A stretch of DNA of 64,000 nucleotides from Pseudomonas sp. Q11. Lineage in GTDB: Bacteria > Pseudomonadota > Gammaproteobacteria > Pseudomonadales > Pseudomonadaceae. Each line of letters opens with the position of its first letter. Position 1 is the first letter of the stretch. The stretch is from assembly GCF_024494355.1 (NCBI RefSeq), contig NZ_JAKNQY010000004.1:62001-126000 (forward strand). The letters run 5' to 3'. Positions 27,303 through 44,723 of this stretch are shown here, in pieces. The notes below the pieces were generated by a model, which was not told where the DNA came from, made no database searches, and worked only from the letters and a program-made list of their open reading frames with translations. Both the position numbers and the translations under genes were made by a program.

Positions 27303-29453
27303 CTAGCCAGCCGAAATCCGACCCTTGCGCTGGCGACGGCTGATCAGCCCCAGCCCCACCGCCACCACCACCAGGACACCGGCTATTTGCAGCCAAACCT
27401 TGTAGGGGCGCAATACCGAACGAATCGGCTCCAGCGCCTGGGTAACGTAGCGTTTGTCCGCATTGCCAAAATCAGGATAAGGACAGTGACGGCCAAAATC
27501 CCAGGCCCAGTCCACGTAAGGACCGTGCTGCACATAACGTTGATACAGCGCGCGTTGCTCTGCCAGGCTGGAGTTGTACCCCACTGCGGCACACAGCACC
27601 GCTGCAAACGCATGGCTGGTATGGGGCAGGTTATCGGCCGCCTGGCTCGCCAACGCCGTGGCGACAAAACGATAGTGATAACGCCCATCCGGTTGCGCGG
27701 CGCTGGCCTGCTGGCGTTGCCACTCGTCTTCGGTGATCAGCGGCCCAACCTTCAGTTTGGCGGGTTCAAGGCGATAGTTGCCGCCGAAGGTGGCGTAGTC
27801 CGGCGCCATCTCGTATCCGAGCAGTTCCATACCCTTGGTACGTGCGATCCAGGACGCATTGAAATACGCCTCGGCCCGTCGGGTGGGCCACCACCTGGAT
27901 TCGGCCTCCTGGCGCAACTGCCCATAGGCTCGGGCCTGGTTCTGTAGCTCGACGTTGTCGAAGTAGTCCGGCGCCTCGTCGTAGCGTCCCTCTCGTAGCA
28001 AGCGGCGCCCCAACAGGTTGCGCAGGTTCGCGGCCACCGGCAGTTGCAGGTAATTGTCGCGATCTTGCTGGCTCAACGGCGGCACCGCCGGGACTTGAGC
28101 GTCGACGTACTGCTTGAGTTCGTCGACTGTCAGCACCCGCTCAGCGACCGTGGCGGCGTCATACCAATAAAGGCTCTGGCTGCGGTAGAGCTGATCGAAG
28201 GCTTGGAGATAATCGCCTCGTTGCAAGGCCAGGATCGCACTTTCGCCTTCGACCCGACACTTGGGTTGCACCGACTCGTAGTCCCAATCCGGCGTGCGTC
28301 GCTCGCCCCACGACTCGTCTTTTGGAAACGCCTGTGCGGCTTTGGCATAAGCCGCTGCCGCGGCGCCTTTGTCACCGTCGCGCACCGCCAGTTTGGCCCG
28401 CAGCCACCAGGCCAGCCCGCTGTCGCCAGCCTTTTCCAGGAACGCCTTCGCGGCGGCATAATCGCCTTGTTGATAATTCACCGCCGCCAGGCGGTCGGCA
28501 TTATCGAGGCTGTCACGGGTGCTGGCTTGCAGCAATTTGACCAGCCGTTTCTCGCCGGGCGGTTGTTCACCGAATGACCAGCCGATACGGCTGAGCAACG
28601 AAGCGGTGATCAGTTGTTGCACTGCCTTACCTTTGAGCAGGCGCGTCAAGTGCTCGTCCGGCTGCTCGCTCAGGTCACCGACCAATTGCTTCAACGAGCT
28701 GTAGCCGACCTCGGAGCCCAGCAGATTCTGGCTGGCATAGAGTTCAATGGCACTGTTCCAATCGCCACGGGTATAGGCAACCCGGGCTTCTTCGCCGAGG
28801 CTGGCGACACCCAGCTCCAACGGATCGCTGAAGCCACTGATGCTCAACTGACGAGCCTGACGGAATGCCTCTTGAGCCTGGTCCAGCAATACTGCCGGTT
28901 CACCGCTGCCCGCCTCGGTACTCATGGCGAACAATGCTCGCCCCTCGGAATACGCGGCCCAGGTGCTACGCAGCCGGCGCTCGTGCGCCGGCAACGCGAG
29001 TAACTGACGGAACCAATCGACCGCCTGCGCATGCTCGCCGGCGTTGAAGGCCGCCGCGCCGATCGCGTACAGCCGCAGTTCGGCAGGCAAATTGGCCGCT
29101 TCAGTGGTGACCTGCTGGACGTCGGTCAGCGCCCGCAAACGCTCCACCACCGCTTGCTGCGGCGGGGTCAGGCCAAGCTGTTCGGCCTTGTTGCGTTGTT
29201 CGACGTAGGCAGGCAAATCACCGTAGCGGTGATCCGGCTTGCCCGTCGCCTCGGTGGCCGGCTTGAGCCCGGCAATTGCGTGGCCGAGGCGACTGATCTC
29301 GAAGCGAAAGCTGCCTTCGGGCAAATCCGCCAGCGATTGGCTACGGTTATCCAACAGGCGCATCGGGAAATCCGGTCCGCAGGCCAGCACCTGGCCCACC
29401 GGCAGGCTGAGGCTCAGGCAGAGCAGGCGACTGGGCCACTTACGGGTGAACAT
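27303..29453 (-). CDS. Large exported repeat-containing envelope protein, unknown function
   Basis: A 716-residue protein starting at the ATG at 29453, with GGAGG 7 bases upstream. An N-terminal signal (SRLLCLSLSLPVGQVLAC) precedes GPDFPMRLL; VLAC could be an atypical lipobox. The body (about 110-620) is helical and rich in alanine, with TPR/Sel1-like pairs (AFNAGEHAQAVDWFRQLLAL; YQQGDYAAAKAFLEKAGD; GDKGAAAAAYAKAAQAFPKD). Near the C-terminus are one membrane helix (VWLQIAGVLVVVAVGLGLI) and a basic tail. It is probably a periplasmic protein anchored in the inner membrane. The start lies inside the end of the upstream DUF3142 gene (14-bp overlap), so the two are coupled and probably work together. 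No family function is recognised. Confidence 0.8.
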   Translation of the reverse strand: MFTRKWPSRLLCLSLSLPVGQVLACGPDFPMRLLDNRSQSLADLPEGSFRFEISRLGHAIAGLKPATEATGKPDHRYGDLPAYVEQRNKAEQLGLTPPQQAVVERLRALTDVQQVTTEAANLPAELRLYAIGAAAFNAGEHAQAVDWFRQLLALPAHERRLRSTWAAYSEGRALFAMSTEAGSGEPAVLLDQAQEAFRQARQLSISGFSDPLELGVASLGEEARVAYTRGDWNSAIELYASQNLLGSEVGYSSLKQLVGDLSEQPDEHLTRLLKGKAVQQLITASLLSRIGWSFGEQPPGEKRLVKLLQASTRDSLDNADRLAAVNYQQGDYAAAKAFLEKAGDSGLAWWLRAKLAVRDGDKGAAAAAYAKAAQAFPKDESWGERRTPDWDYESVQPKCRVEGESAILALQRGDYLQAFDQLYRSQSLYWYDAATVAERVLTVDELKQYVDAQVPAVPPLSQQDRDNYLQLPVAANLRNLLGRRLLREGRYDEAPDYFDNVELQNQARAYGQLRQEAESRWWPTRRAEAYFNASWIARTKGMELLGYEMAPDYATFGGNYRLEPAKLKVGPLITEDEWQRQQASAAQPDGRYHYRFVATALASQAADNLPHTSHAFAAVLCAAVGYNSSLAEQRALYQRYVQHGPYVDWAWDFGRHCPYPDFGNADKRYVTQALEPIRSVLRPYKVWLQIAGVLVVVAVGLGLISRRQRKGRISAG

Positions 29454-30633
29454 TAGAACCTCCTTGGTCAATTTTCGTACAGCGCGCCCAGCCAACGGCA
29501 CGCTGGGCGCCGGCGGCCAGGCGGCCTTCCTGAATGCGGGTGAAGGTAAGCAGTCCGGGAGTTTGTTGCAACGTGTACCCCGCCAGCGCATCGGCACCGT
29601 CGCAGGCGCCAACGACCAAGGTCAGGCGTTGCGGCCAGGGGCTGTCGAGATTGCCCTGGTTAACCAACGCAATATCGTAAAGCCCGCCCTGTTCGTGCAC
29701 ACGCAAGGCCAGGCGACCGTCCAGGCTGTCTCCCCGCGCAACGGCGCCGAGAGTGGTCAAGCTCCAGGCACGTCGGTCATCCGCCAGCGGCAGGCGAAAC
29801 CAGATCAGCCCGGCCAGGTGTGTCGGCGGCTCGGCCCCCAGTTCCGCTACCAGCCCAGCCACTTGCTGCGGATCAGCCAGCAGCTCACGACGCTCGCCGC
29901 CTTGATCGATCGGCACTTCGCTTTCCACCACCGGCCCGCCACTGTCCTGGGTCAACAGCGCCACGCCGTAGGCTGGCAGGGCCAGATAGAACGGTCGCGT
30001 GGTCACACCACTCCAGCGTTCGGCCCAGCGCAAAGCCTGTTTCGGGTCGAACAGCCCCTGCCGGGGATCACTCACCGCGTGGACCTGCAACACACTGCTG
30101 TCCACCGTCTGCAGCAGCCCTGGCAGCGCAGGGCTGTCGAGCCAGGCCGGCAGCGCCGTGATGCTCAGCCCCAGCGTGGCGGGTAGGGTTTGCCGTAATC
30201 GGCTCAAAAATGCGCCGTAGGCAGGCAGCCGTGCATTGCCGGCGTCGTGGTCGATCTCTACCCCCACTGGGACCAAGCCCTGGGCTTGCCAGTCGCTCAG
30301 CAGTTGCTGGATCTGCGCGATCACATCGTCCTGATCCAGAAATTTGAGCTGACCGTCCAGGCGTATCACTGCGATCAGCGGTCGACCGTCAGCCTTGAGC
30401 AGTTGCGGATCGATCCGTGCGCGGCTCCAGCCGGCCCGGGGAAAGGCCTGCAAGGCAAGAATGCGCAGGCTGGAAAAATCCCTATGACTTTGCCGCAGCG
30501 CCGGCGCGTGGGCCGGCGTCCACTGGCGCTGCCAGACATAGAGTTGTTGATCGAGAGCCGGGGCCGGGGACTGTTCGCAGCCGCTTAAAAGCAATGCGGC
30601 AAAGGTCAGCGATAGCCGGAAAAGAAAAGCCAT
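29440..30633 (-). CDS. DUF3142 lipoprotein
   Basis: A 397-residue lipoprotein: LLLSGC is a canonical lipobox at about residues 15-20. The following domain (about 30-280) has alternating strands and helices resembling a TIM barrel: FSSLRILALQAFPR, RPLIAVIRLDGQL, GLVPVGVEIDHDAGNARLPAY, LGLSITALPAWLDS, RPFYLALPAYGVAL and LAGLIWFRLPL. The GVEIDHDAG acid cluster is where glycoside-hydrolase-like barrels carry catalytic acids. A beta-rich C-terminal part (about 300-390) may be a sugar-binding or sandwich domain. It overlaps the downstream large envelope protein. Activity is undetermined; a polysaccharide-related role is inferred. Confidence 0.82.
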   Translation of the reverse strand: MAFLFRLSLTFAALLLSGCEQSPAPALDQQLYVWQRQWTPAHAPALRQSHRDFSSLRILALQAFPRAGWSRARIDPQLLKADGRPLIAVIRLDGQLKFLDQDDVIAQIQQLLSDWQAQGLVPVGVEIDHDAGNARLPAYGAFLSRLRQTLPATLGLSITALPAWLDSPALPGLLQTVDSSVLQVHAVSDPRQGLFDPKQALRWAERWSGVTTRPFYLALPAYGVALLTQDSGGPVVESEVPIDQGGERRELLADPQQVAGLVAELGAEPPTHLAGLIWFRLPLADDRRAWSLTTLGAVARGDSLDGRLALRVHEQGGLYDIALVNQGNLDSPWPQRLTLVVGACDGADALAGYTLQQTPGLLTFTRIQEGRLAAGAQRAVGWARCTKIDQGGSNVHP

Positions 30634-30712: not shown

Positions 30713-31528
30713 TCATTCAGGCTTGCGCGCAATAATCACCTGACTCTTAGCCACTACCGCATCCAGCGCCTGCTTGATCTGCGCGCCGCGGGGCGAATTG
30801 AGCACCGCTTGCCAGGTGTCTGCCCAATGGTTGAGCAACGGGTGGTCGGCGTTGCTGAAATCGACTTTCGCTTCCCAGAACAACAGCATCCACATCGACC
30901 AGTAGAAACCGTACTGGCTGTGACTCAACACCTCCAGCCCGGCCTCACTGACCATCGCCTTGAACTGCTCTTCACTGATGATGCGAATGTGATTGGGCTT
31001 CCGGAAATACTCCGGCGCGGCGATGTCTTTTTGCAGGTCTTCGGAGCTGGGGTGCGGCACGCTCAACAGGTACAGCGCGCCGGGCCGGCCGACCCGTACC
31101 AACTCGGCGAGAAACTGTGCCGGGTCGTCGACATGCTCAATGACTTCCGTGGACACCACGCGGGTGACCGTCGCATCGGCAATGGGCAGGGGGTTGCAGT
31201 CGGTCACATGGCATTCGACGTCGCGCGCCGGAGTGTCGCTCAAGCGCTGGCGGGTGGCCTCGACCTTGGTCGCGTCGATGTCGGCGATGATGATCTTCGC
31301 CCCGCGCATGCCACAAAAATGCACGTTGCCACCGTCGCCGCAGCCAACGTCCAGCAACGTGTCTTCAGGTGCAACCGGGAAACCGCTGAACAGCTCTCCG
31401 GTTTGCTGATTGAACCAGCCGCTGAGCATCGCATCGTGCAGCCCGAGCATATAGGGGTCGACCTTGTCGGCCGCTGGCGTTGCGGGCGCGGGCGTGCCCG
31501 TGGTGAGTTTCTTCAAAAGGCTCAGCAT
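30713..31528 (-). CDS. SAM-dependent methyltransferase, CPA-associated
   Basis: A 271-residue class I methyltransferase. The SAM loop is TLLDVGCGDGGNVHF (about 58-70), then the acid IIIADIDATK, and STEVIEHVDDPAQFLAELVRVGRPG. The C-terminus ends AKSQVIIARKPE. It is clearly paralogous to the methyltransferase at 32673-33548, with the same LHDAMLSGWF opening and the same end motif. By position it corresponds to the PA5459-type gene beside the A-band cluster of P. aeruginosa. Likely substrate: a terminal sugar or precursor of the rhamnan (inference). Its start overlaps the acyltransferase stop by 7 bp, making it the last gene of the five-gene minus-strand operon. Confidence 0.85.
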   Translation of the reverse strand: MLSLLKKLTTGTPAPATPAADKVDPYMLGLHDAMLSGWFNQQTGELFSGFPVAPEDTLLDVGCGDGGNVHFCGMRGAKIIIADIDATKVEATRQRLSDTPARDVECHVTDCNPLPIADATVTRVVSTEVIEHVDDPAQFLAELVRVGRPGALYLLSVPHPSSEDLQKDIAAPEYFRKPNHIRIISEEQFKAMVSEAGLEVLSHSQYGFYWSMWMLLFWEAKVDFSNADHPLLNHWADTWQAVLNSPRGAQIKQALDAVVAKSQVIIARKPE

Positions 31529-32676
31529 GAAGGGGCTCCAGAGACGGGAAGGACAGGACGGGCGGCACGCAGGCGTTCAACCAGTTGAGTACCGCGATCG
31601 CGCATGGGCATTTCGACCATCCGGTAGTTGAGTTCGCTCAACAGCCCGATCAGCGTCAAGGCACAGGCAAGGGCCAGCCAGGGATCGCTCGCCACGTCCG
31701 GTGATCCCAACGGGGCGAAACGAAACCACAGTTCGCGCAGCAGGAAAAACACCGGGATGTGAATCAGATAGATCCCATAGGACCGGCTGCCAACCCAGGT
31801 CAGCGCGGTTTTCAACGGGCTGCGGGGCAGCAGGTAGTCCCGGTCATAGGAGGCGACCCACACCAGCACGGCGCTGAGCAGCGCGATGACTCCGAGACGG
31901 TAGAACGACAGATTGAAGCGTTCAGTGGCAATCCACGCCATCACGCCCCCCAAAACGATGATCAGCAACATCCCCGCTCCGGGCCAGCGCAGCCATCTGG
32001 GTTCGAACCGCCCGTACCCGTGCCGCAAACTCCAGATCGACAGCAGCACGCCGAGGGCCAGGGCGTCTGTGCGGATCACCGAAAGCCATACCGCACGCCA
32101 GGTGAAAAACTGTACCAGCACCACCGCCAGCAGCACCCAGACCAGATACCGGCGCGAGACGAACACCAGCAGCGGCAGAATGAAATAGAACTGCTCTTCC
32201 AGCGAGAGCGTCCAGTACACAAAGCTCGCACCATATTCGTATCGCATGAATGCATCGGCAAAACGCAAATTGGCGAATTGCAGAAAACCGGCCAGGGTCG
32301 CCTGTACGTTGGCTTGCACACTGCCAAACGCACCGGAGCGATTGAAAAAAAACGCCGCCAGCAGCATCAGCAAGAGCCAGAGCCACGCCGACGGCAGCAA
32401 GCGAAACGCCCGGCGAATCCAGAATTCGCGGGCGGTGGCCCAGAACTGCCGAGAATTGTCACAACCACGCAGTTGCGGGATCAGACTGCGACCAATGACA
32501 AAGCCCGATATCGCGAAGAACAGATCCACGCCCCACCACAGCTGGAAGCTGCCGGAAAGAGCCGCCAGACGCGGCCATCCGCCAGGAAACGGCATGCCTT
32601 GAACGTGATGGAACAGCACCCCCATCACCGCAACGGCGCGCAACAACTCGATGTCCATGATTCGCTGGCTGCTCAT
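31522..32676 (-). CDS. Acyltransferase 3 family membrane protein
   Basis: A 384-residue integral membrane O-acyltransferase (OafA/NodX type). It begins MSSQRIMDIELLRAVAVMGVLFHHVQGMPFP, with the ELLRAxAxxxVxxxH catalytic-histidine motif, followed by WWGVDLFFAISGFVIGRSL. About ten hydrophobic helices follow. Members O-acetylate surface sugars from cytoplasmic acetyl-CoA. Placed between two paralogous methyltransferase genes and overlapping both (4 bp and 7 bp), it is probably part of CPA or LPS decoration. Confidence 0.9.
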   Translation of the reverse strand: MSSQRIMDIELLRAVAVMGVLFHHVQGMPFPGGWPRLAALSGSFQLWWGVDLFFAISGFVIGRSLIPQLRGCDNSRQFWATAREFWIRRAFRLLPSAWLWLLLMLLAAFFFNRSGAFGSVQANVQATLAGFLQFANLRFADAFMRYEYGASFVYWTLSLEEQFYFILPLLVFVSRRYLVWVLLAVVLVQFFTWRAVWLSVIRTDALALGVLLSIWSLRHGYGRFEPRWLRWPGAGMLLIIVLGGVMAWIATERFNLSFYRLGVIALLSAVLVWVASYDRDYLLPRSPLKTALTWVGSRSYGIYLIHIPVFFLLRELWFRFAPLGSPDVASDPWLALACALTLIGLLSELNYRMVEMPMRDRGTQLVERLRAARPVLPVSGAPSC

Positions 32677-33548
32677 GCTGAGCTCCGGGTGGCAGGATCA
32701 GGTTTGCGGGCAATGATGACCTGGCTCTTGGGCATGAATTGATCGAGGACCTGCTTGATCGCCAGGCCATCGGGTCGCGTCAGCAAGTCCTGCCAGACGC
32801 TCGCCCAGCGCTCCATCAGCGGCGGGTAAGGCGCCTGGATCTGGTCACGCACCGCACCCTCAAGGTTCCGGCCGGCCGCCCGTTCGCTGGCCCAGAAAAA
32901 AATCATGCCCATGACCCAGAAAAAGCCGCTGGCCTGACGATGCTCGATGACCAGTCCCGCGTCCTCCACTAATGCAGCGAAGCGTTCGGCACTGAAAATC
33001 TGCACATGGTTGGGAGACTGGAAATAACCCGGCGGCGCGATGCCTTGCTGTAGATGCTCGCCCACCGGGGCCGGCACGCTGAGCAGGTACTGCGCCCCTG
33101 GCCGGCCCATGCGCACCAGTTCGGCCATGAACGGCTCGGGTTGATCGACATGCTCGAGCACTTCCATGCACACGATTTTGTTGGCGCAGCCATCGGTCAG
33201 AGGCAGCGGCAGGCTATTGCTGACCAGGCCCAGAAACGGTGCTCTGGTTTGAGCCTCGACCTGCCGAGCCAGGCTGCGCACCTTGTCGTATTCGCTGTCG
33301 GTAAAAATCACCGAAGCGCCTTGGCGCATTGCAAACAAGGTCGCCACGCCCTCCCCGCAACCGACGTCCAGCAAGGTGTCCTGGGCCGTGATAGCGAAGC
33401 CTTTGAGCAGTTCGCCGCTGTCATTGAGAAACCAGCCGTCGAGCATTGCATCGTAGAGGCCTGCGTCACGGGGCGACACGGCGCCAGTCGATGGCGGCGC
33501 GGCGGGTTCGACGGGTGGCCTGAGCCACGCCAGCAACCGCCCGATCAT
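32673..33548 (-). CDS. SAM-dependent methyltransferase, CPA-associated (paralogue)
   Basis: A 291-residue class I methyltransferase with the SAM loop TLLDVGCGEGVATLF (about 57), CMEVLEHVDQPEPFMAELVRMGRPG and the ending KSQVIIARKPD. The N-terminal block GLYDAMLDGWFLNDSGELLKGFAIT aligns with GLHDAMLSGWFNQQTGELFSGFPVA of the methyltransferase at 30713-31528, so they arose by duplication. A proline-rich stretch (about 10-20) differs. It overlaps the glycosyltransferase and acyltransferase genes by 4 bp each. Two related enzymes in one operon may methylate two hydroxyls or act on different sugars. Confidence 0.85.
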   Translation of the reverse strand: MIGRLLAWLRPPVEPAAPPSTGAVSPRDAGLYDAMLDGWFLNDSGELLKGFAITAQDTLLDVGCGEGVATLFAMRQGASVIFTDSEYDKVRSLARQVEAQTRAPFLGLVSNSLPLPLTDGCANKIVCMEVLEHVDQPEPFMAELVRMGRPGAQYLLSVPAPVGEHLQQGIAPPGYFQSPNHVQIFSAERFAALVEDAGLVIEHRQASGFFWVMGMIFFWASERAAGRNLEGAVRDQIQAPYPPLMERWASVWQDLLTRPDGLAIKQVLDQFMPKSQVIIARKPDPATRSSA

Positions 33549-34837
33549 GGTTGCTGCGCGTTCCGGCGACGCTCGAAAACCTGTTCAAAGAACGCCCGTA
33601 GATGCTGCTCCGCGTTGGCCTGGCTGCAGAACGTTTCCAGACTCCGCACGGCATGGGCCGACATCCGGCGATAGCGCTCGGGGTCGTTTTTGGCCACGTC
33701 ATAGCTGGCGCGATAGGCCGAGCACAGCGAGTCCCAATCGGTGACATAGCGCAGGGTACGAAACGCTGCACGGGGGTCGTGGGGCCAGGCAGTCAGTTCC
33801 TCGGTGCAATCGACGACAAAGGCATTGTCGTGGTCGATGTAATCGGCCATCGCCGTGTTCAAGGGTGCAATTGCCGGCCGGCCACAGGACATGAACTCCA
33901 TCAGCGGCAAGCACTGCCCCTCGCCGTAGGAGCAGTTGACCACGTAGCGAGTGGCCTCCACCAACCGCTCGTAGTCCGCGTCCGCCAGGTAACCGTGGAT
34001 CAGCACGATGCGGCAGCGGTATGACTGGTTCTTGTAGACATGGTGCAACATGTCGTTGAGCGCGGCGGTGACGTCGTGGTGGGTCAGCTTGAGCACCAGC
34101 GTTGCGTCAGGAACGTCGCGGAACGTCGCGCAAAATGCGCTGATCATGTCCTTCCAGTTCTTGCGTCCGTCGTAAGGGTTGAAGACCGATGTATACACCA
34201 CCCCGTCCAGAAGCAGCTCGCAATCCTCGGCCGGAGCGTCAAAAACCAGCGGTGTACCGGCCTGGTGCGCTGGTGGGCCGTAGGGCCGCAGGTCGGCGGT
34301 GCGGCTGTCGATCAACAGACCGCGCAATTGCAGTCGCATGTGATCGACCGTGGGTCGCTGGGCCAGCATCGCGCCGCGAGCGGCAAACCGGTCCCAGACC
34401 GGTGCGGCAATGGCGACGATGGGAAAATCGACACCCATGACTTCCCGCACAGCGTTGACAGTGAAGCTGGAATGGGTAATCGCCATACCGGTTGCCCCAA
34501 GGACCACCCGCCAGTCGTGCCGTGGTTCACCCTGCCAGCTTTCGGTCGGGATGGTGCTGAACTCCCAGGCGAAGACCGGAACGGTCGGGCAGGTATAGTC
34601 GGCGGCGGTGCGATGGGGCGGTGAAAAGGACAGGAAGACACAATCCTCACCACGCTCCAGGCAGTCGGCGTATAGCTGATCGACTTCTTCTTCCGGCCGG
34701 GTCACTTCAATGACGTGCCCCAGCCGCTCCAGTACGGGACGAAACTCCTTGAGCACAAAGTAATAGCTGTATTCGGGCTTGCCGAGGTTCTCAAGAATGT
34801 TGCTCTGGTTGGTTTCCGAATAAACAATGATCAGCAT
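33545..34837 (-). CDS. Glycosyltransferase, CPA-associated
   Basis: A 430-residue enzyme with a GT-B-type fold. The start at 34837 (MLIIVYSETNQSNILENLG) is the only one that fits: it lies within the end of the upstream paralogue, and longer frames read through that gene. The C-terminal half has YTSVFNPYDGRKNWKDMISAF, TLVLKLTH, IVLIHGYLADADYERL, VVNCSYGEGQCLPLMEFMSCGRPAIAP. The last block, with E in GEG...PLMEFMSCG, is the GT4 nucleotide-sugar motif. It is a paralogue of the protein at 34831-36426. Homologous position in P. aeruginosa: PA5456. Probably adds a terminal or branching sugar to CPA; donor unknown. Confidence 0.85.
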   Translation of the reverse strand: MLIIVYSETNQSNILENLGKPEYSYYFVLKEFRPVLERLGHVIEVTRPEEEVDQLYADCLERGEDCVFLSFSPPHRTAADYTCPTVPVFAWEFSTIPTESWQGEPRHDWRVVLGATGMAITHSSFTVNAVREVMGVDFPIVAIAAPVWDRFAARGAMLAQRPTVDHMRLQLRGLLIDSRTADLRPYGPPAHQAGTPLVFDAPAEDCELLLDGVVYTSVFNPYDGRKNWKDMISAFCATFRDVPDATLVLKLTHHDVTAALNDMLHHVYKNQSYRCRIVLIHGYLADADYERLVEATRYVVNCSYGEGQCLPLMEFMSCGRPAIAPLNTAMADYIDHDNAFVVDCTEELTAWPHDPRAAFRTLRYVTDWDSLCSAYRASYDVAKNDPERYRRMSAHAVRSLETFCSQANAEQHLRAFFEQVFERRRNAQQP

Positions 34838-36426
34838 GATGCGGCACCCACCTGAGGCAGCAGCGGTGCGTTTTCGGTGCAGCCTTGCGGGGCCAGGAAA
34901 TCCACCAGGCGCTGCTGCACCGGGGCAAAACCGCAATAGCGGCGCATGCGCTCGCTCGCCGCGACGGCCATGGCCTGATAGGCCTGGGGCTGATGCCGAG
35001 CCATGGCGTAGCTCTGCTGGTAAGCAAGTTTCAACGACCCCCAATCGGGCCGATGGCGCAGGGTGCGGTACAAAATGCGCGAATCTTCCGGCCAGATGGT
35101 GGGCTCATGGCTGGACTTGACGATAAAGGCCACCTCGGTATCGATGTAGTCGCCCATTGCCGTGTGGTCTGGCGCGATGGCCGGGCGCGCGCAAGACATG
35201 AACTCCATCAGCGGCAGGCACAAGCCTTCGCAGCGCGACGCATTGACGTAAAAACTCGCCGCACCGTACAAGCGGGCGAATTGTTCGTCCTCCAGATAGC
35301 CATGCATCACCACTACCCGACAGCGGAACGGCGATAGCTGAGACAGCAGCGTGAGCAATTCGACGTAATAGGTCGACAGGTCGTTCTGGGTCATTTTCAG
35401 CACCAGCGTGGCGTCCTCGACGTCCCGCAGCGCCCAACAGAATGCCGTGATCAAGTGATGCCAGTTCTTGCGACCGTCATCGGGGTTGAACACGCTGACA
35501 TACACCACCCCGCTGACTTCGGTTTCCACCACCCGACGGGTGTCCGGCAGAACCGCCTGGGGATGTTCCGCTGGCGCCGGTTCTGGAGTTGGCTCGGCGA
35601 TACCCGGCACAGGCCGCGCCGGCCCTCTCACCACCCGGCTCACCAAAATGCGTACCTGCACGGGCACCAGGTCGCGAACCGCTTCGCGATACCAGCACAA
35701 CAGGTTGTGCTTGATCAGCCACAACGGCCCTTGGGCAGCCTTTGCGGTCACGGCGCGCAACACTTCGCGCAGGTAGTGCCGGGAGATGAAAGCGCGGCGC
35801 CGCCACGTCAGGGCTCCAGGTTCGATGGGCGCCCTCCCCGATGCCGCTTCGGTAAGCGGAGCGATCAAGCCATCTGCCGACAGCCCAAGGGGGCGGCTGT
35901 CGATAATGCAGCCCTTGATCTGTAAGACCGTCCCCGGGTTGACCGGTGTAATGGGGTATTGCTCACGAACCGCGGCGAAGCGTTCCCACAGTGGAGTGGG
36001 CAAGACCAGCACCGGGAAATCCTCGCCCAACGTGCGACGGATCGCCTCGGCCGTGTGACTGGACAGGGTAATCACCCGACCATGGCGCGCCAGCGTACGG
36101 CTCCAGTCATGCCGCAGGTCGTCATCCCAGTGCTCGGCCGGGATCGAGTCGAACTCCCAGGCTACCACGCAGACCATGGGGCATAGCAGATCGACGGGCG
36201 TCTTGTGGGGCGGGGAAAACGAGAGGAACAGGCAGTCCTGCCCCGCCTGCTGCAACGTCTGATAAAGCGGATCGACCTCGGCGACCGACGACACCACATG
36301 CACCCGCCCCAGACTTTCCAGCACGGGGCGATAAGCCTTGAGCACGAAGTAATAACTGTACTCAGGGCGGCCGAGGCTCTGGCTGATGGAGTGGTCGTTT
36401 ACGTCCGAGTAAAGAATGAAATTCAT
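34831..36426 (-). CDS. Glycosyltransferase with central insertion, CPA-associated
   Basis: A 531-residue paralogue of the glycosyltransferase at 33545-34837. N-terminus LGRPEYSYYFVLKAYRPVLE and C-terminal blocks (FNPDDGRKNWHHLITAF; CEGLCLPLMEFMSCARPAIAP) match it closely. It carries about 100 extra residues in the middle (about 195-310): a basic, hydrophobic helix pair (RRRAFISRHYLREVL; LWLIKHNLLCWYREAVRDL) and a proline/glutamate-rich linker. The insertion may bind the membrane or a partner. It is the first gene of the minus-strand operon, divergent from rmd across 424 bp. Function inferred from context only. Confidence 0.83.
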   Translation of the reverse strand: MNFILYSDVNDHSISQSLGRPEYSYYFVLKAYRPVLESLGRVHVVSSVAEVDPLYQTLQQAGQDCLFLSFSPPHKTPVDLLCPMVCVVAWEFDSIPAEHWDDDLRHDWSRTLARHGRVITLSSHTAEAIRRTLGEDFPVLVLPTPLWERFAAVREQYPITPVNPGTVLQIKGCIIDSRPLGLSADGLIAPLTEAASGRAPIEPGALTWRRRAFISRHYLREVLRAVTAKAAQGPLWLIKHNLLCWYREAVRDLVPVQVRILVSRVVRGPARPVPGIAEPTPEPAPAEHPQAVLPDTRRVVETEVSGVVYVSVFNPDDGRKNWHHLITAFCWALRDVEDATLVLKMTQNDLSTYYVELLTLLSQLSPFRCRVVVMHGYLEDEQFARLYGAASFYVNASRCEGLCLPLMEFMSCARPAIAPDHTAMGDYIDTEVAFIVKSSHEPTIWPEDSRILYRTLRHRPDWGSLKLAYQQSYAMARHQPQAYQAMAVAASERMRRYCGFAPVQQRLVDFLAPQGCTENAPLLPQVGAASC

Positions 36427-36850
36427 GGCATCCCATCATGGAGCTGCCATCCCGGCGACTCCACCTCATGACGGTCGACTCACGAACCGCTCCGGCCAGG
36501 AGGCCGTTGCTCGTCGATTGTCTGCTTACCCGTCTCGTTCTTGTTTTTAGTGGCCCTTGCCCCGTGATTCGACTTGGAATCGACATCGCAGGGGTCGTGA
36601 CAGGGGCATTCTAACCACATCAGCCAAGGGTTCGTGAACAGGCGAATGAGAATAAACCGGCTATAAATATGAGAACTGACCGGTCACGGTTTGCGTGGTT
36701 GAAATTGCTTCGAAATTGGCACAGATTGGCAACCAAACAACTACAACAAAAATTTCATCTGGGCCGACTTTCGAATGGGTTTCTCCGAACTTACGGAAAT
36801 ATCCTACTCAGTTCCGCACCAGACGAAGTTTGCATCAAGAGGGCTGGTGC
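36427..36850. promoter_or_regulatory. Divergent promoter region of the CPA cluster
   Basis: A 424-bp intergenic region separates the minus-strand modification operon from rmd. The right half (36640-36840) is clearly more AT-rich than the genes (for example ACAACTACAACAAAAATTTC) and probably holds the rmd promoter and a leader of over 100 bases. GATTC/GAATC and TGCCCC/GGGGCA pairs at 36555-36612 could form a weak structure. No known operator was recognised. Confidence 0.5.
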
Positions 36851-38730
<1,880 letters not shown>

Positions 38731-38733
38731 GTC

Positions 38734-40176
38734 ATGCTCATTCCCGTGATTCTCTCCGGCGGTGCCGGGACGAGATTGTGGCCGGTATCCCGCGAGGGCC
38801 ATCCCAAACCCTTCATGATCCTGCCCGACGGCCAGTCGCTGCTGGGCAAGACCTACCGACGCGCCGCAGGGCTGTTCGACGGTCGGGGCGACATCGTCAC
38901 CGTGACCAATCGCGAATACTACTTCCAAAGCCGTGACCACTATCAAAGCGCCCACGTAGAACGCCACCGCGGTCACTTCGTACTTGAGCCTGCAGGTCGC
39001 AACACCGCGCCGGCCATTGCCGCAGCCACTCTCGCGGTGCAGGCCCTGCACGGTGACGACACGATCATGGTGGTGATGCCCGCCGACCACCTGATCCGGG
39101 ATGAGGCCGCCTTCAAGGCTTCAGTGGAGCATGCAACGCAACTGGCCAAAAACGGTCACCTGGTGACATTCGGCGTGCTGCCCACGACACCGGAAACCGG
39201 CTTCGGTTATATCGAACGAGGTAAGCCCCTGGATACCAAAGGCGCTGCCAAGGTCGTACGCTTCGTCGAAAAACCCGACTTGCAAACCGCAACACACTAT
39301 CTGGAAAGCGGCCGGTTCCTGTGGAATTCGGGCATGTTCTGCTTCTCGGTCAAAACCCTGCTGGCTGAATTGCAAATTCACGCACCGCAGTTGCTGGAAC
39401 AGGCTCGCGCCTGCGTGACAGCGAGCACCGCAGTAGAAACCTCAGGTTGCGTGCAACAGGAACTGTCCGCGGTGCATTTTGCCGAAATGCCGGATATCTC
39501 TATCGACTATGCCTTGATGGAGCGCTCCAACAACGTCGTGGTGATCCCCGCCACATTCGACTGGAGCGATATCGGCTCCTGGAGCGCTGTCGCCGACCTG
39601 GTACCCGCCGATGCACAGAACAACCGCGTCAGCGGCGAAGCGTTGTTCATCGACAGCCAGAACAACTACGTCCAGAGTGAAGGACGCTTGGTGGCCGCGC
39701 TGGGCGTGGAAAACCTGATCATCATCGATACCGCCGATGCGGTGCTGGTGGCTCATGCCGACCGTGCCCAGGATGTTCGCCGCGTGGCCCGGCAGCTCAA
39801 GGACAAGGAACACGAAACCTATCGCCTGCACCGCACGGTCAGCCGCCCTTGGGGCAGCTACACCGTTCTGGAAGAAGGCCCGCGCTTTAAAATCAAGCGC
39901 ATCGTGGTCAAACCCGGCGCGTCGCTGTCGCTGCAAATGCACCATCATCGCAACGAACACTGGGTGGTGGTCGAAGGCATGGCCAAGGTGACCAACAACG
40001 GCGCGGGCTCGCACCTGGTTGCCAAGAACGAGTCAACGTTCATCCCCGCCGGCCACAAGCATCGCCTGGAAAATCCCGGCGTCATCGACCTGGTGATCAT
40101 CGAAGTCCAGAGCGGTGAATACTTGGGAGAAGATGACATCGTGCGCTTCGAGGATCACTACGGCAGGGCCGTCTGA
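38734..40176 (+). CDS. wbpW: Mannose-1-phosphate guanylyltransferase / mannose-6-phosphate isomerase
   Basis: Bifunctional enzyme giving GDP-mannose for the rhamnose branch; 480 residues. The N-terminal nucleotidyltransferase (about 1-285) has GGAGTRLWPVSREGHPKPF, VMPADH and FVEKPD. The C-terminal cupin isomerase (about 330-470) has RPWGSYTVLEEG, SLQMHHHRNEHWVVVEG with metal-binding histidines, and STFIPAGHKHRLENPG. Paralogues such as AlgA and PslB have the same architecture; the CPA operon position identifies this as WbpW. Its stop overlaps the wzm ATG (TGATG). Confidence 0.94.
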   Translation: MLIPVILSGGAGTRLWPVSREGHPKPFMILPDGQSLLGKTYRRAAGLFDGRGDIVTVTNREYYFQSRDHYQSAHVERHRGHFVLEPAGRNTAPAIAAATLAVQALHGDDTIMVVMPADHLIRDEAAFKASVEHATQLAKNGHLVTFGVLPTTPETGFGYIERGKPLDTKGAAKVVRFVEKPDLQTATHYLESGRFLWNSGMFCFSVKTLLAELQIHAPQLLEQARACVTASTAVETSGCVQQELSAVHFAEMPDISIDYALMERSNNVVVIPATFDWSDIGSWSAVADLVPADAQNNRVSGEALFIDSQNNYVQSEGRLVAALGVENLIIIDTADAVLVAHADRAQDVRRVARQLKDKEHETYRLHRTVSRPWGSYTVLEEGPRFKIKRIVVKPGASLSLQMHHHRNEHWVVVEGMAKVTNNGAGSHLVAKNESTFIPAGHKHRLENPGVIDLVIIEVQSGEYLGEDDIVRFEDHYGRAV

Positions 40177-40973
40177 TGTTGCTGACCTTGCACCGCGCGC
40201 TGTGGAGCTACCGCGGTTTCGTCCTCGGCAGCGTCAAGCGCGAGTTTCAGGCGCGCTATCGCAACTCGTTGTTCGGCGCGTTGTGGACCGTGCTCAATCC
40301 GCTGTCGATGATCCTCGTCTACACCGTGGTTTTTTCCCACATCATGCGCGCCCGCCTGCCGGGGGTGGACGATGGCATGGCCTACAGCGTCTACCTTTGC
40401 GCCGGGCTGCTGACGTGGGGGTTCTTCGCCGAGATCACGACCCGCAGTCAGGGCATGTTTCTGGAAAATGCCAATCTGCTGAAGAAGATCAGCTTTCCCA
40501 GGATCTGCCTGCCGGTGATTGTGCTGTTCAACGCCGGGATCAACTTCGCGATCATCCTCGGTCTGTTTCTCGGTTTCCTGTTGATCACCGGCCGCTGGCC
40601 AGGGATGACGTTGCTGGCGCTGGTGCCATTGCTGGCCCTGCAAGTGATGTTCGCCGCCGGGCTGGGCATGTTGCTGGGGATTCTCAACGTGTTCTTTCGC
40701 GATGTCGGGCAACTGTTCGGTATTTGCCTGCAATTCTGGTTCTGGCTAACGCCCATTGTTTACCCGATGACCATCCTGCCGCCGTCGATCCAGCAACTGC
40801 TGGCCCTCAACCCCATGACAGCGCTGATGCAGAGTTACCAGAACCTGTTTCTCTACAACCAGTGGCCAGTCTGGAGTTCGCTGACACCGCTGCTGGTCAT
40901 CGGACTACTGATGTGCGTCACCGGTTTGCGAATGTTTCGACGGCGCGGCGGTGAAATGGTGGACGAACTCTGA
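40176..40973 (+). CDS. wzm: O-antigen/CPA ABC transporter permease
   Basis: A 265-residue ABC-2 type membrane subunit exporting undecaprenyl-linked rhamnan across the inner membrane. It begins with a cytoplasmic amphipathic segment (LWSYRGFVLGSVKREFQARYRNSLFGALWTVLNP, read at positions 5-40), typical of Wzm. Six hydrophobic helices follow. QARYRxSxLGxxW is the polysaccharide-export permease signature. The wzt ATG overlaps its stop. Confidence 0.95.
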   Translation: MLLTLHRALWSYRGFVLGSVKREFQARYRNSLFGALWTVLNPLSMILVYTVVFSHIMRARLPGVDDGMAYSVYLCAGLLTWGFFAEITTRSQGMFLENANLLKKISFPRICLPVIVLFNAGINFAIILGLFLGFLLITGRWPGMTLLALVPLLALQVMFAAGLGMLLGILNVFFRDVGQLFGICLQFWFWLTPIVYPMTILPPSIQQLLALNPMTALMQSYQNLFLYNQWPVWSSLTPLLVIGLLMCVTGLRMFRRRGGEMVDEL

Positions 40974-42238
40974 TGGGGCATTTACGCGTCAGTGGCCTGG
41001 GCAAGGCCTACAAGCAGTATCCGAACCGCTGGAGCCGGTTGTTCGAGTGGCTGATTCCCTTTTCCCGCCCACGTCATCAATTGCACTGGATCCTGCAGGG
41101 CGTCGATTTCGAGATCCAGCCCGGGGAAGCTGTCGGCATCGTCGGGGTCAACGGCGCAGGCAAAAGCACGTTGCTCAAGATGATCACCGGCACCACCCAA
41201 CCCACCTGTGGGCACATTCAACTGCGCGGCCGCGTCGCTGCGTTGCTGGAGCTGGGCATGGGGTTCCACCCGGATTTCACAGGCCGCCAAAACGCCTTCA
41301 TGGCCGGCCAGTTGCTGGGCATGCAAGTGGAGGAAATCGAATCATTGATGCCTGAGATCGAGGGTTTTGCCGAAATCGGCGAGGCCATCGACCAGCCGGT
41401 ACGCACCTATTCCAGTGGCATGCAAATGCGCCTGGCCTTCAGCGTCGCCACGGCCCGCCGCCCGGATATCCTGATCGTCGATGAAGCCCTGTCGGTGGGT
41501 GACGCCTACTTCCAGCACAAAAGCTTTGAGCGCATCCGCAGTTTTCGCAAGGCCGGTACGACGCTGCTGATCGTGTCCCACGACCGCTCGGCGATTCAGT
41601 CGATCTGCGACAGCGCCATCCTGCTGGAGCACGGGCGCATGGCCATGCATGGCAAGCCGGAAGAGGTGATGGATTATTACAACGCGATGCTGGCCCAGCG
41701 CGAGGGTCAGATCGTCCGCCAGGAGATGCTCGCCAACGGCCAGGTACGCACTATCTCCGGCACCGGCGAGGCCGGCATTGTGGATGTACAGTTGTTGAAC
41801 AGTCAGGGCCAGTCGGTGGAAGTGGCCGAAATCGGCCAACCGATGGTGTTGCAGGTGCGGGTCGAAGTCCGCCAGGACATTGAGCGGCTGGTGCTGGGTT
41901 TCCTGATCAAGGACCGCCTCGGCCAGCCCATGTACGGCATCAACACCCATCGCCAGGATAAAGCCGTGACCGACCTCAAGGCCGGCGAGCACGTCACCTT
42001 CCGTTTCAGCTTTGACATGCGCCTGGGCAAGGGCAATTACTCCGTCGCGCTAAGCCTGTCCCGGCTGGATTCGCACCTGGACCGCAATTTCGAATGGCGC
42101 GACTACGGGCTGGTGTTCCACGTCATCAACAATCGTCAGGAAGATTTTGTCGGCTGTTCGTGGCTTCAGGCCCGTACCAGCATCCAGCGCTCGGCAATAC
42201 CCAAGGCCGAAGAACTGACGCAAAAGGAACTGCCATGA
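40973..42238 (+). CDS. wzt: O-antigen/CPA ABC transporter ATPase with C-terminal sugar-binding domain
   Basis: A 421-residue ATPase. Walker A is GVNGAGKST (about 64), signature YSSGMQMRLAF, Walker B DILIVDEALSVGD and switch His in SHDRSA. The C-terminal Wzt_C domain (about 260-405; VAEIGQPMVLQVRVEVRQD) is a beta-sandwich which in the O8/O9a systems recognises the finished, terminally modified O-chain. That makes the divergent methyltransferase genes relevant: the cap may be the export signal (inference). It overlaps wbpX by 4 bp. Confidence 0.95.
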   Translation: MGHLRVSGLGKAYKQYPNRWSRLFEWLIPFSRPRHQLHWILQGVDFEIQPGEAVGIVGVNGAGKSTLLKMITGTTQPTCGHIQLRGRVAALLELGMGFHPDFTGRQNAFMAGQLLGMQVEEIESLMPEIEGFAEIGEAIDQPVRTYSSGMQMRLAFSVATARRPDILIVDEALSVGDAYFQHKSFERIRSFRKAGTTLLIVSHDRSAIQSICDSAILLEHGRMAMHGKPEEVMDYYNAMLAQREGQIVRQEMLANGQVRTISGTGEAGIVDVQLLNSQGQSVEVAEIGQPMVLQVRVEVRQDIERLVLGFLIKDRLGQPMYGINTHRQDKAVTDLKAGEHVTFRFSFDMRLGKGNYSVALSLSRLDSHLDRNFEWRDYGLVFHVINNRQEDFVGCSWLQARTSIQRSAIPKAEELTQKELP

Positions 42239-43602: not shown

Positions 43603-44723
43603 CTCTCAACGCCCGGATTCTCCAGGCGCCACGCACCGGCATCGGTCATTACGTGGCGGAACTGGCCACCGCCCTGGCCCAGGAGCCGGATGTGCAGTTG
43701 TCACTGTTCCACGGCTGGGGCTGGAGCTCGCAGTTACCGCAGGCGGCCACGCCAGGTTATTCAAGGCTTTCACCTTTGCTGCGACAGGTGCCGGGGGCCT
43801 ATCGGGCGAGGCGCTGGCTGGAACAGAAACGCTTCGACCAGGGCCGTTCCCGCGCCATCGACCTGTATCACGAACCGAGCCTGTGGCCCCTGGCCTTCGA
43901 AGGGCCGACGGTGATGACCCTGCATGACCTGACCCATCTGCGCTACCCCGAGACACAACCGCCGGCACGACTGAAAGAGATCGAGCGACGGCTGAACCGG
44001 GCGGTGGAACAGGCACAACTGATTTTGACCGACTCGCAGTTCATCGCCGATGAAGCGCAGCAGCATTTCGGCCTGCCCGCCGAACGCCTGAGGGTCGCCC
44101 CGCTGGGCGTCGCGGCGCGCTTCCATCCGCGTGAACCCGAGGTCATCGACGGGGTTCTCAAAGCCCATGGGCTGGAACCAGGTGGTTATTTTTTGTGCGT
44201 CGGCACCCTGGAGCCCCGCAAGAACCTGTCATTGGCCCTGCGTGCCCACGCCGGATTACCCGAATCCGTACGTCAGGCTTTTCCGTTGTTCATCGTGGGA
44301 ATGAGCGGATGGCAGCGCGCACAACTCAATGACGAGTTGAAAAGTGCCCTGGCTGGCGGTCATATTTGCCTGGCGGGTTACCTGCCCGACGAGCAGGTTG
44401 CCCAGTTGTTGGCGGGAGCACGGGCACTGATCTTTCCGTCGCTCTATGAAGGTTTTGGCCTGCCGGTACTCGAAGCCATGGCCAGCGGCACCCCGGTGAT
44501 TACCACCCGCTGCTCGGCGATGCCGGAAGTGGCCGGGGCGGCCGGCAATTATTGCGAGCCCGACGATCCCCAAGGCATGCGCGACGCCATGGACCGGTTG
44601 ATCGAAGATCGCCTGCATTGGCAGGCGTGTCGTGACGCCGGGTTGCAACAGGCGGCGCTTTTTTCCTGGCAACGGTGTGCAAAGGTGACCACCGACGCCT
44701 ATCGCCAGGTTCTGGGAGGTTGA
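43593..44723 (+). CDS. wbpY: CPA rhamnosyltransferase WbpY
   Basis: A 376-residue GT4-family enzyme starting MRIALNARILQAPRTGIGHY. Sugar-nucleotide motifs: VMTLHDLTHLRYPE, CVGTLEPRKNLSLAL and PSLYEGFGLPVLEAMASGTPVITT. Extends the D-rhamnose chain at the cytoplasmic face. Directly followed by wbpZ with no gap. Confidence 0.92.
   Translation: MRIALNARILQAPRTGIGHYVAELATALAQEPDVQLSLFHGWGWSSQLPQAATPGYSRLSPLLRQVPGAYRARRWLEQKRFDQGRSRAIDLYHEPSLWPLAFEGPTVMTLHDLTHLRYPETQPPARLKEIERRLNRAVEQAQLILTDSQFIADEAQQHFGLPAERLRVAPLGVAARFHPREPEVIDGVLKAHGLEPGGYFLCVGTLEPRKNLSLALRAHAGLPESVRQAFPLFIVGMSGWQRAQLNDELKSALAGGHICLAGYLPDEQVAQLLAGARALIFPSLYEGFGLPVLEAMASGTPVITTRCSAMPEVAGAAGNYCEPDDPQGMRDAMDRLIEDRLHWQACRDAGLQQAALFSWQRCAKVTTDAYRQVLGG

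Follow-up and report, generated by a model that had tools for sequence, protein, structure and literature searches.

Capping and export in described systems

In E. coli O8 and O9a, a methylated non-reducing end of the polysaccharide is coupled to export through the C-terminal domain of Wzt. The cap is the work of a single protein, WbdD, which joins a kinase and/or a methyltransferase to a coiled coil. Recognition of a finished O-polysaccharide by its ABC exporter is well studied for a few caps.

The P. aeruginosa PAO1 genes PA5455–PA5459 were reportedly studied for their part in CPA by Hao et al. in mBio in 2013, and Cairns et al. are said to have described a methyl rhamnan tip on the A-band polysaccharide in 2022. 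In order, these genes are taken to encode two glycosyltransferases, a methyltransferase, an acyltransferase and a second methyltransferase.

A passage of PMC5297154 describes PA5455–PA5459 as a five-gene operon and, citing Hao 2013, PA5455 and PA5456 mutants as devoid of CPA, PA5457 and PA5458 as dispensable (PA5457 mutants being CPA-positive) and PA5459 mutants as altered. The sequence-only reading of our locus held that no detailed biochemistry is known for these genes; that describes the enzymes fairly, but the dependence of CPA on the genes is in print. The excerpts of PMC11019553 (Jamshidi 2024) used here cover the structure, synthesis and immunogenicity of the tip. They report a tip of methylated D-rhamnose on P. 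aeruginosa CPA, an alpha1-4 linkage in its synthetic mimics and efforts to turn this methyl rhamnan tip into a vaccine antigen. In Aquifex aeolicus the cap is 3-O-methyl-mannose/rhamnose, and its reader is called analogous to O8 by the authors, according to excerpts of PMC9445017. We also drew on excerpts of PMC6804347, PMC10422930, PMC7065532, PMC3916391, PMC8319346 and PMC7168646.

A five-gene module beside a CPA cluster

The window (the whole 64-kb stretch of DNA analysed) carries five module genes on the minus strand, identified as open reading frames with Pfam matches. GTa (34831–36426, 531 aa) and GTb (33545–34837, 430 aa) are GT4-type glycosyltransferases, MTb (32673–33548, 291 aa) and MTa (30713–31528, 271 aa) are SAM methyltransferases, and AT3 (31522–32676, 384 aa) is an Acyl_transf_3 membrane acyltransferase. 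The genes overlap by 7, 4, 4 and 7 bp in the order of transcription, GTa, GTb, MTb, AT3 and MTa, which matches PA5455 to PA5459. An intergenic region of 424 bp (36427–36850) separates GTa from the divergent rmd, so both the overlaps of 4–7 bp and the divergence proposed from the letters alone are confirmed.

On the plus strand follow rmd (36851–37765, 304 aa, TTG start at 36851), gmd (37762–38730), a wbpW-type GDP-mannose pyrophosphorylase/isomerase gene named by order and general knowledge (38734–40176), wzm for an ABC-2 permease (40176–40973), wzt (40973–42238), wbpX for a glycosyltransferase of 455 aa (42235–43602), wbpY (43593–44723) and wbpZ (44724–45854). Gene names in this cluster go by order; gmd, wzm and wbpX also have Pfam support. 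Wzt combines an ATPase with a C-terminal carbohydrate-binding domain (Wzt_C, residues 261–398; PF14524, E 3.1e-36). A GT-GT-MT-AT-MT operon thus lies beside an rmd–wbpZ cluster, as in CPA loci of the PA5447–PA5459 type. The module is of the PA5455–PA5459 type, and its order mirrors those genes as had been claimed, judged by published descriptions and general knowledge rather than by comparison with P. aeruginosa sequence.

AT3-family proteins are marked by an Acyl_transf_3 domain, membrane segments and R-X10-H, and GT4 enzymes by a GT-B fold and EX7E; these motifs and the SAM motif LLDVGCG have established functional meanings. All are intact here: LLDVGCG in the methyltransferases, R-X10-H in AT3, which has six hydrophobic segments on a simple scale, and EX7E in the glycosyltransferases (EGLCLPLME / EGQCLPLME). 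By Pfam, both methyltransferases belong to class I (Methyltransf_11, E 5.5e-18 and 1.2e-11), AT3 to Acyl_transf_3 (E 1.1e-27) and both glycosyltransferases to Glyco_trans_1_4 (E 7e-9 and 3.2e-7). Both pairs are paralogous, as first suggested: MTa and MTb share 45.8% identity over 271 aligned residues and GTa and GTb 47.6% over 429, GTa having about 95 additional residues between its two halves.

The GT4 assignment of GTa rests on its EX7E motif and Pfam, and that of GTb also on an AlphaFold2 model with a GT-B fold (mean pLDDT 88.6). Among the 50 Foldseek matches listed for this model are GT-B enzymes of many kinds (TM 0.40–0.59 by query length), and these give no clue to the substrate. Sequence searches of the PDB gave a best E of 0.016 for GTb and of 0.093, to unrelated lipases, for AT3. 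A Pfam scan of the module proteins found no kinase domain at E 0.001, and hence no WbdD-like kinase.

Module content across the genus

In 398 genomes of the genus, the module and WbpX are found together in 83 and singly in three; two of the three are incomplete assemblies and the other has a diverged glycosyltransferase pair. Two glycosyltransferases are present in 84 of 85 fetched loci (in the exception, G684, a contig end truncates the locus), and all 85 have one methyltransferase or more, so the module holds together beyond chance. MTb is absent from 25 of the 85 loci, AT3 from six and MTa from five. That no locus lacks both methyltransferases is, by our own arithmetic, near the expectation under independent loss and not significant. 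These natural losses agree with the published mutant phenotypes of P. aeruginosa, in which the glycosyltransferases are essential and MTb and AT3 dispensable.

The MTa and MTb labels were given by the best BLAST match to MTa or MTb of the window, since a midpoint-rooted methyltransferase tree did not split the two at the root; they are clear in core genomes and weak in deep lineages, where both lie near 50%. G013, counted as MTb-less, has two methyltransferases that are both nearest MTa, and the AT3 of G593 was scored present at only 35% identity. In G036, a single open reading frame joins GTb to MTb.

MTb presence follows the exporter

We compared gene trees for 65 genomes that have the full set of ten CPA and glycosyltransferase genes; 20 of these genomes are MTb-less. 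Genomes were left out as diverged or incomplete (G155, G013, G041, G093, G109, G659, G688, G652, G746, G747, G684 and G591) or because one of the ten genes is missing (G034, G053, G518, G715, G596, G112, G125, G619 and G699). Presence of MTb changes once on the wzt DNA tree, 4 times on wzm, 5 on GTb, 7 on GTa and 9 on wbpX, against 11 on wbpW, 13 each on gmd and wbpZ, 14 on rmd and 15 on wbpY; shuffled labels give minima of 12–14 and a mean of about 17. Protein trees agree. The comparison of module content with Wzt type, which the sequence-only reading had proposed as a check, is therefore positive. Since the polymer-gene trees also fall below the shuffled mean, part of the signal is ancestry.

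Simple linkage is rejected as the cause, because the genes that separate the module from wzm–wzt, namely rmd, gmd and wbpW, do not track MTb. Low resolution of conserved genes is likewise rejected: wbpZ and rmd have diverged as much as wzt (mean p-distances 0.184, 0.192 and 0.185). The acyl group, too, is rejected as a part of the lock. AT3 is absent from five of the 65 genomes, and its loss requires five changes on 11 of 12 gene trees, wzt included, and three on the MTa tree.

It is possible, but in our view unlikely, that the module builds a methylated tip that serves as a surface structure or terminator and is unread by Wzt, with MTb and Wzt associated through linkage or transfer of whole clusters. 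Besides the 11–14 changes in the intervening genes, DNA distances between the genes argue against this. GTa correlates at 0.56 with neighbouring rmd, at 0.85 with distant wbpX and at 0.83 with wzt. GTb, GTa, wzm, wzt and wbpX inter-correlate at 0.73–0.94 (WbpX with GTa and GTb at 0.85–0.89) and reach 0.45–0.67 with rmd, gmd, wbpW, wbpY and wbpZ. A partial Mantel test of GTb with wzt gives r 0.73 (p 0.0005); among the controls, rmd retains a small significant r of 0.15 with GTa and 0.25 with wzt. Polymer genes also follow four chromosomal genes (0.62–0.80) better than does the module–exporter block (0.50–0.57) in the 28 of the 65 genomes used for this control, and GST, a gene of the downstream flank, sides with the polymer block in the 15 usable genomes. 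With eight MTb-less members, the 28-genome set is too small for a label test (changes: chromosome 4, rmd 4, wbpW 3, wbpZ 3, gmd 5, wbpY 5, wbpX 5, wzm 3, GTa 3, wzt 2, GTb 2; shuffle minima 3–5). What an unread tip would explain is that the label changes twice on both the NBD and the CBD half of Wzt; with this equal tightness, and many other Wzt columns splitting along MTb presence, the lock is not specific to the binding domain.

We found no description of a match between MTb and exporter alleles in the open-licence literature searched. The genes are already known; their coupling to the exporter is apparently new.

Residues of the Wzt pocket

Contacts of the Aquifex 3-O-methyl reader include Asn313, His355, Trp362 and Val380, as given in excerpts of PMC9445017. 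In Aquifex numbering, all 75 genus Wzts compared retain the first three and 74 retain Val380, while Ala348 is Ser in all 75, His350 is Ser in 73 and Tyr233 is Asn in 70. Four residues are described as lining the methyl pocket, and the two variable ones, L311 and A359 in the window Wzt, follow MTb. The position matching Thr346 is Ala in 49 of 49 MTb-containing and Ser in 19 of 20 MTb-less genomes; position 300 is Leu or Met in 49 of 49 and Ile in 17 of 20. This count of 69 leaves out G746, G747 and G155 and the diverged G013, G041, G093, G109, G659 and G688; in G746 and G747 the Wzt is of a different type that lacks the Trp/His pocket. The exception at 346, G584, lacks MTb, with no remnant at the locus, yet has the pocket of MTb-containing genomes.

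A tree of the five polymer genes yields 11 independent pairs that differ in MTb. Ser346 accompanies MTb loss in 10 of them, runs against it in none and shows no difference in one (p 0.002). Among 15 deeper lineages whose pocket can be read, the rule holds in 12 (misses: L151, G109 and G659), which is by our arithmetic not significant by itself; these lineages come from a mixed set of records and may overlap among themselves or with the 69. The Ala/Ser switch at 346 supports, at the level of sequence, a reading of the methyl mark by Wzt, and the position of two switching residues in the methyl pocket speaks against an unread tip.

Modules without a Wzt C-terminal domain

The module is not always accompanied by a Wzt with a carbohydrate-binding domain. 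Five of 12 scanned module genomes of the genus (G034, G053, G518, G715 and G596) have no PF14524 match genome-wide, and in a Rhodospirillales MAG without a Wzt_C match the module lies behind a domain-less Wzm/Wzt; both cases fit an unread tip. L151 (Denitrificimonas) was rejected as such a case, as its Wzt_C lies about 4 kb past the fetched stretch. Since the module is kept in genomes without the domain, export reading is not its only use.

In four of the five genus genomes without a match, which belong to at least three lineages, the locus is eroded: it no longer contains rmd, gmd, wbpW, wzm, wzt, wbpY or wbpZ but retains the glycosyltransferases, MTa and wbpX, with AT3 in three and MTb in none. 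A counterpart of the GTa–rmd intergenic region is kept, with remnants of the rmd start by eye, and wbpX now lies behind it. Presence of the module in genomes lacking rhamnan genes had been named beforehand as evidence against the proposed cap; it is found here in weak form only, since a second D-rhamnose cluster, with a Wzt that has no C-terminal domain, is present in all four, and rhamnan need not be absent. The kept genes have dN/dS of 0.04–0.25, again as an unread tip would allow. Of 27 pair values, 21 lie inside the intact-locus range; the six above it (GTb two, wbpX three, AT3 one; highest 0.251) make some relaxation possible, and much of the divergence may be older than the erosion.

These loci suggest that the tip enzymes are usable apart from a reader. 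They also bring up a self-contained unit of module and WbpX for D-rhamnose glycans in general, tied to CPA by frequent co-location, which we think improbable. Such a unit would account for the close distances of WbpX to GTa and GTb, for the eroded loci, and for the second-cluster rmd', which occurs in 31 of 398 genomes and in none of the other 82 with module or WbpX. A lone glycosyltransferase pair in two gamma MAG loci, with no rhamnan genes recognised in the fetched stretch, points the same way. However, 27 of the rmd'-bearing genomes show no GTb match at the threshold applied, so the module is not required by the second cluster, and P. aeruginosa module mutants lose or change CPA in the passage of PMC5297154.

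Proposed role of the module

Our preferred reading, which we hold to be probable, is that the module builds and methylates a short tip at the non-reducing end of D-rhamnan CPA and that this tip is read by the C-terminal domain of Wzt in most species. Its computed basis is the co-occurrence with WbpX, the invariant glycosyltransferase pair, the lock of MTb to wzm–wzt, the pocket switch and the partly conserved Aquifex-type pocket; its published basis, in P. aeruginosa, is the need for the genes and the existence of a methylated tip. GTa and GTb would together assemble the tip, most likely by attaching D-rhamnose through a linkage outside the range of WbpX, WbpY and WbpZ. MTa, and MTb where present, would O-methylate tip sugars. 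AT3-family acyltransferases act on the far side of the membrane, and AT3 would add an optional acyl group, probably there. The tip would end elongation and, in most species, be bound by the Wzt C-terminal domain before export; MTb would alter the mark, so that the Wzm–Wzt allele must match. The bond made by each glycosyltransferase, the sugar and position methylated by MTa and MTb, chain termination and direct binding by this Wzt are what we infer.

GTa and GTb might instead build an adaptor at the reducing end that joins the rhamnan to its GlcNAc primer, leaving only the methyltransferases at the tip. The CPA-devoid PA5455 and PA5456 mutants would fit, as would one paper's figure legend with GlcNAc only in a PA5455 mutant and a review's figure legend naming a possible short sugar adaptor. 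Uncapped chains blocked in export would look CPA-negative too, however, and the GTa and GTb alleles track methyltransferase content and exporter, not wbpZ or wbpY. The GTb–MTb fusion in G036 argues in the same direction, and a tip linkage that differs from the reported backbone would need transferases of its own. We regard an adaptor as very unlikely.

Going beyond tip synthesis and reading, we offer a tentative extension to which we give somewhat less than an even chance. Pseudomonas CPA clusters would use at least two export codes, with tip enzymes, WbpX and Wzm–Wzt co-adapted and swapped among species as a matched set, across interleaved polymer genes that remain chromosome-bound. MTb would set the code and Wzt residue 346 read it (Ala the MTb tip, Ser the MTb-less one), and in several lineages a loose tip unit would serve a reader-less D-rhamnose polymer. 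If the coupling is real, mark and reader have been swapped many times by nature within one genus, two residues of a known pocket are open to direct testing, and PA5455–PA5459 gain biochemical roles, with the methyl rhamnan tip as presumed product.

Comparison with known systems

The initial interpretation, a methylated and acylated cap serving as export signal as in O8/O9a, is partly supported: the link of methylation to Wzt is supported, and the acyl part is not, AT3 being missing from six of 85 loci and outside the lock. Like PA5455–PA5459, needed for or affecting CPA in PAO1, the window module is a five-gene operon beside rmd–wbpZ, and the 3-O-methyl-D-rhamnose end piece of the A-band tip is, by analogy, its expected product. 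Unlike that operon, the module lacks MTb in many species of the genus and MTa or AT3 in some, and the excerpts on the P. aeruginosa system mention no match to exporter alleles.

E. coli O8/O9a has one capping enzyme, WbdD, whereas two glycosyltransferases, two methyltransferases and an acyltransferase are separate proteins here. The likeness to those systems extends in part to the pocket, which resembles the O8-analogous Aquifex reader; it fails for O9a, whose Wzt_C is without the Trp/His/Val pocket of the genus Wzts, and for the WbdD-like kinase. With Aquifex aeolicus WzmWzt (excerpts of PMC9445017; PDB 8dku), the locus shares Wzt_C and would share a D-rhamnose-rich polymer and a methylated end. 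The window Wzt keeps five of nine named Aquifex side-chain contacts (Leu300, Asn313, His355, Trp362 and Val380) and differs at Tyr233, Thr346, Ala348 and His350 and in most of the trap loop. The Aquifex mark is a single methylated sugar, whereas here it is presumably a methylated oligosaccharide.

The module and its neighbours

The five-gene operon (30713-36426, minus strand) is of the PA5455-PA5459 type and is ordered GTa, GTb, MTb, AT3 and MTa from its 5' end. The sequence-only reading had described five genes running in one direction, divergent from rmd, and this arrangement is borne out, with overlaps of 7, 4, 4 and 7 bp and 424 bp to rmd. The two pairs that it took for duplicates are indeed paralogous: the GT4-type glycosyltransferases GTa and GTb share 47.6% identity across 429 aligned residues, the methyltransferases MTa and MTb 45.8% across 271. 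Judged by sequence, all five predicted proteins, including the acyltransferase AT3, retain intact motifs, which we take to be marks of active enzymes. On the opposite strand, rmd, gmd, wbpW, wzm, wzt, wbpX, wbpY and wbpZ follow in series (some names assigned by order). A DUF3142 gene (29440-30633, minus strand) lies directly downstream of MTa; 57 of the 65 test genomes have it at the locus, and its evolution follows that of the polymer genes rather than the module.

Co-occurrence with WbpX and natural gene losses

Among 398 genomes of the genus, 84 encode a GTb relative (E of 1e-72 or better) and 85 a WbpX orthologue (1e-70 or better). Both are present in 83 genomes, leaving three single finds. 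Genome G652 has GTb without WbpX, is 86% complete and has a contig that stops before the expected wbpX position; G608 has WbpX without GTb and is 77% complete; G746 shows only WbpX at the threshold used and has a diverged glycosyltransferase pair at its locus. In G746 (L106) and G747 (L104), the rhamnan genes and module accompany a different Wzm/Wzt pair, whose Wzt is 33-35% identical and lacks the Trp/His pocket.

A class-wide draw of 369 genomes gave matches at 1e-10 only in the window's own genome and in G155, from another family. G155 has a GT-GT-MT arrangement with Wzm/Wzt (Wzt 65% identical), adjoined by two long glycosyltransferases with just 32-37% similarity to WbpX, and its gmd-like and rmd-like genes are located elsewhere in the genome. 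In the betaproteobacterium Collimonas sp. OK412 (L144), the fetched stretch holds the module and rmd to wbpX, all in one direction, which suggests horizontal transfer. In a Rhodospirillales metagenome-assembled genome (MAG; L164:6378-16688), the module immediately follows a domain-less Wzm/Wzt and includes two acyltransferase frames and a single methyltransferase. Two gammaproteobacterial MAGs have a lone GT-GT tandem (L162:10001-13515 and L163:2-3349); neither such a methyltransferase nor a rhamnan gene was recognised within the fetched stretches.

We counted gene losses in 85 fetched genus loci, namely those of the 84 GTb-match genomes and of G746. Two glycosyltransferases are present in 84 of the 85, the sole exception being truncated by a contig end. 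MTb is absent from 25 loci (including G013, which has two methyltransferases, each nearest MTa), AT3 from six and MTa from five; none of the 85 lacks a methyltransferase altogether. In G036, GTb and MTb are joined in a single 701-aa frame (L020:4340-6445, minus strand), a natural GT-methyltransferase fusion. According to a passage of PMC5297154, which cites Hao 2013, PA5455 and PA5456 are essential for the common polysaccharide antigen (CPA), PA5457 and PA5458 are not, and CPA is altered in PA5459 mutants. The natural losses agree with these phenotypes: the glycosyltransferases are indispensable, MTb and AT3 dispensable.

MTb and the exporter

METHYLTRANSFERASE content is locked to the exporter, as label-change counts on gene trees show. 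The test set comprised 65 genomes, 20 of them MTb-less, in which each of ten chosen CPA and glycosyltransferase genes is present; for the DNA tree of every gene we determined the minimum number of times that the label "MTb absent" must change. The exporter genes, the module glycosyltransferases and wbpX require 1 (wzt), 4 (wzm), 5 (GTb), 7 (GTa) and 9 (wbpX) changes, and the polymer genes 11 (wbpW), 13 (gmd), 13 (wbpZ), 14 (rmd) and 15 (wbpY). Smaller DNA trees give 7 for AT3 (60 genomes), 8 for MTa (61) and 13 for the flanking DUF3142 gene (57). Label shuffles (200 per tree) have means of 15.5-17.4 changes (minimum 10-14); the polymer genes lie below these means and so retain a measure of ancestral signal. 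Protein trees give 2 for wzt, 4 for wzm, 5 for GTb and 12-16 for the polymer genes. The label "AT3 absent" is not locked to the exporter, with five changes for five genomes on the wzt tree and five on all other trees holding AT3-less genomes except that of MTa (three).

DNA distances in the 65 genomes split the cluster into two interleaved blocks: GTb, GTa, wzm, wzt and wbpX intercorrelate at 0.73-0.94 and rmd, gmd, wbpW, wbpY and wbpZ at 0.66-0.91, with cross-block values of just 0.45-0.67. The 48 genomes holding all 13 genes show an equivalent split. GTa correlates at 0.56 with its neighbour rmd and at 0.85 with distant wbpX. Given polymer-gene distance, the partial r of GTb is 0.73 with wzt, 0.82 with wzm and 0.82 with wbpX (p 0.0005 each, the smallest value the test allows); control genes in the same test gave -0.07 to 0.25, with rmd significant. 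Four chromosomal genes (28 genomes) correlate at 0.62-0.80 with the polymer genes and at 0.50-0.57 with the module-exporter block. The tip enzymes, WbpX and the exporter therefore appear to travel together.

The Wzt pocket

According to PMC9445017, Aquifex WzmWzt exports a rhamnose-rich chain whose 3-O-methyl mannose or rhamnose cap it recognises through known contacts, and Leu300, Thr346, Ala348 and Trp362 of its Wzt line the methyl pocket. We aligned the window's Wzt with Aquifex Wzt and 75 genus Wzts. Asn313, His355 and Trp362 (Aquifex numbering) are conserved in all 75 and Val380 in 74; Ser replaces Ala348 (75/75) and His350 (73/75), and Asn replaces Tyr233 (70/75). Trp, His and Val of this Aquifex-type pocket are missing from the O9a domain.

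Two of the four methyl-pocket positions, 300 and 346, vary in the genus, and both track MTb. Residue 346 is Ala in 49/49 genomes with MTb and Ser in 19/20 without; residue 300 is Leu or Met in 49/49 with MTb and Ile in 17/20 without. The four genomes carrying MTb without MTa all have the pocket of MTb-bearing genomes. In G584, the exception among MTb-less genomes, the locus holds no remnant of MTb. In 11 independent pairs differing in MTb (five-polymer-gene tree), residue 346 is concordant in ten, opposite in none and without difference in one (p 0.002). Many other Wzt columns show the same split because the whole allele is shared, and the pocket residues are therefore candidate, not proven, readers. 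The rule that a single MT goes with Ser and a pair of MTs with Ala holds in 12 of the 15 deeper lineages whose pocket could be read; the misses are L151, G109 and G659.

The tip would be built by GTa, GTb and the methyltransferases acting together with WbpX, and in most species it would be read by Wzt, so that MTb and exporter would have to match. We infer the enzyme specificities, chain termination and Wzt binding in this scheme. As a guess, the chemistry would be explained most economically if the methyl group added or placed by MTb took the position at which a Ser346 would otherwise face a hydroxyl.

Uncoupled loci

Uncoupling, like coupling, is observed at the genome level. In four MTb-less genomes (G034, G053, G518 and G715), only GTa, GTb, MTa and wbpX are left at the locus, with AT3 in three. 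The rmd upstream region is still there, followed by remnants of the rmd start (identified by eye) and then wbpX. These eroded genomes represent at least three lineages, judged by gene trees, nearest relatives and, for three, a chromosomal tree.

All four have a second D-rhamnose cluster (L108-L111) with gmd', rmd', wbpY', wbpZ' and a 247-aa Wzt' without reader domain; Wzm' is recognised by BLAST in three. The genes lost are mostly those with a counterpart in this second cluster, and those kept have no closely related counterpart there. The kept genes have dN/dS values of 0.04-0.25, with 21 of 27 pair values inside the intact-locus range. Of the 398 genomes, 31 have rmd' (the four eroded ones and 27 without a GTb match), and it is found in none of the other 82 with module or WbpX. 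No match to the reader domain Wzt_C (PF14524) was found in the four eroded genomes or in G596. G596 (L075) carries all five module genes and a CPA cluster that is complete except for wzm-wzt, which are missing between wbpW and wbpX; it encodes a short Wzt elsewhere (L112). These uncoupled loci suggest that the tip is useful even beside an exporter that lacks a reader.

Comparison with known systems

Matched-set evolution and a loosened tip unit were not found in the open-licence literature searched. A figure legend in PMC7065532 gives GlcNAc only for a PA5455 mutant, and PMC10422930 places PA5455 changes in some pyocin-tolerant CPA mutants. P. fluorescens Pf0-1, an environmental laboratory strain, is reported in PMC6804347 to have a complete CPA cluster. 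In PMC11019553, alpha1-4 linked 3-O-methyl-D-rhamnoses serve as synthetic mimics of the P. aeruginosa tip, and strains mutated in genes presumed to be methyl rhamnan-related were tested. WarA, a c-di-GMP-responsive methyltransferase, lowers CPA chain length according to a review (PMC7168646). The locus itself, CPA with a PA5455-PA5459 module, is of a known kind, and the principle that Wzt reads caps is likewise already known.
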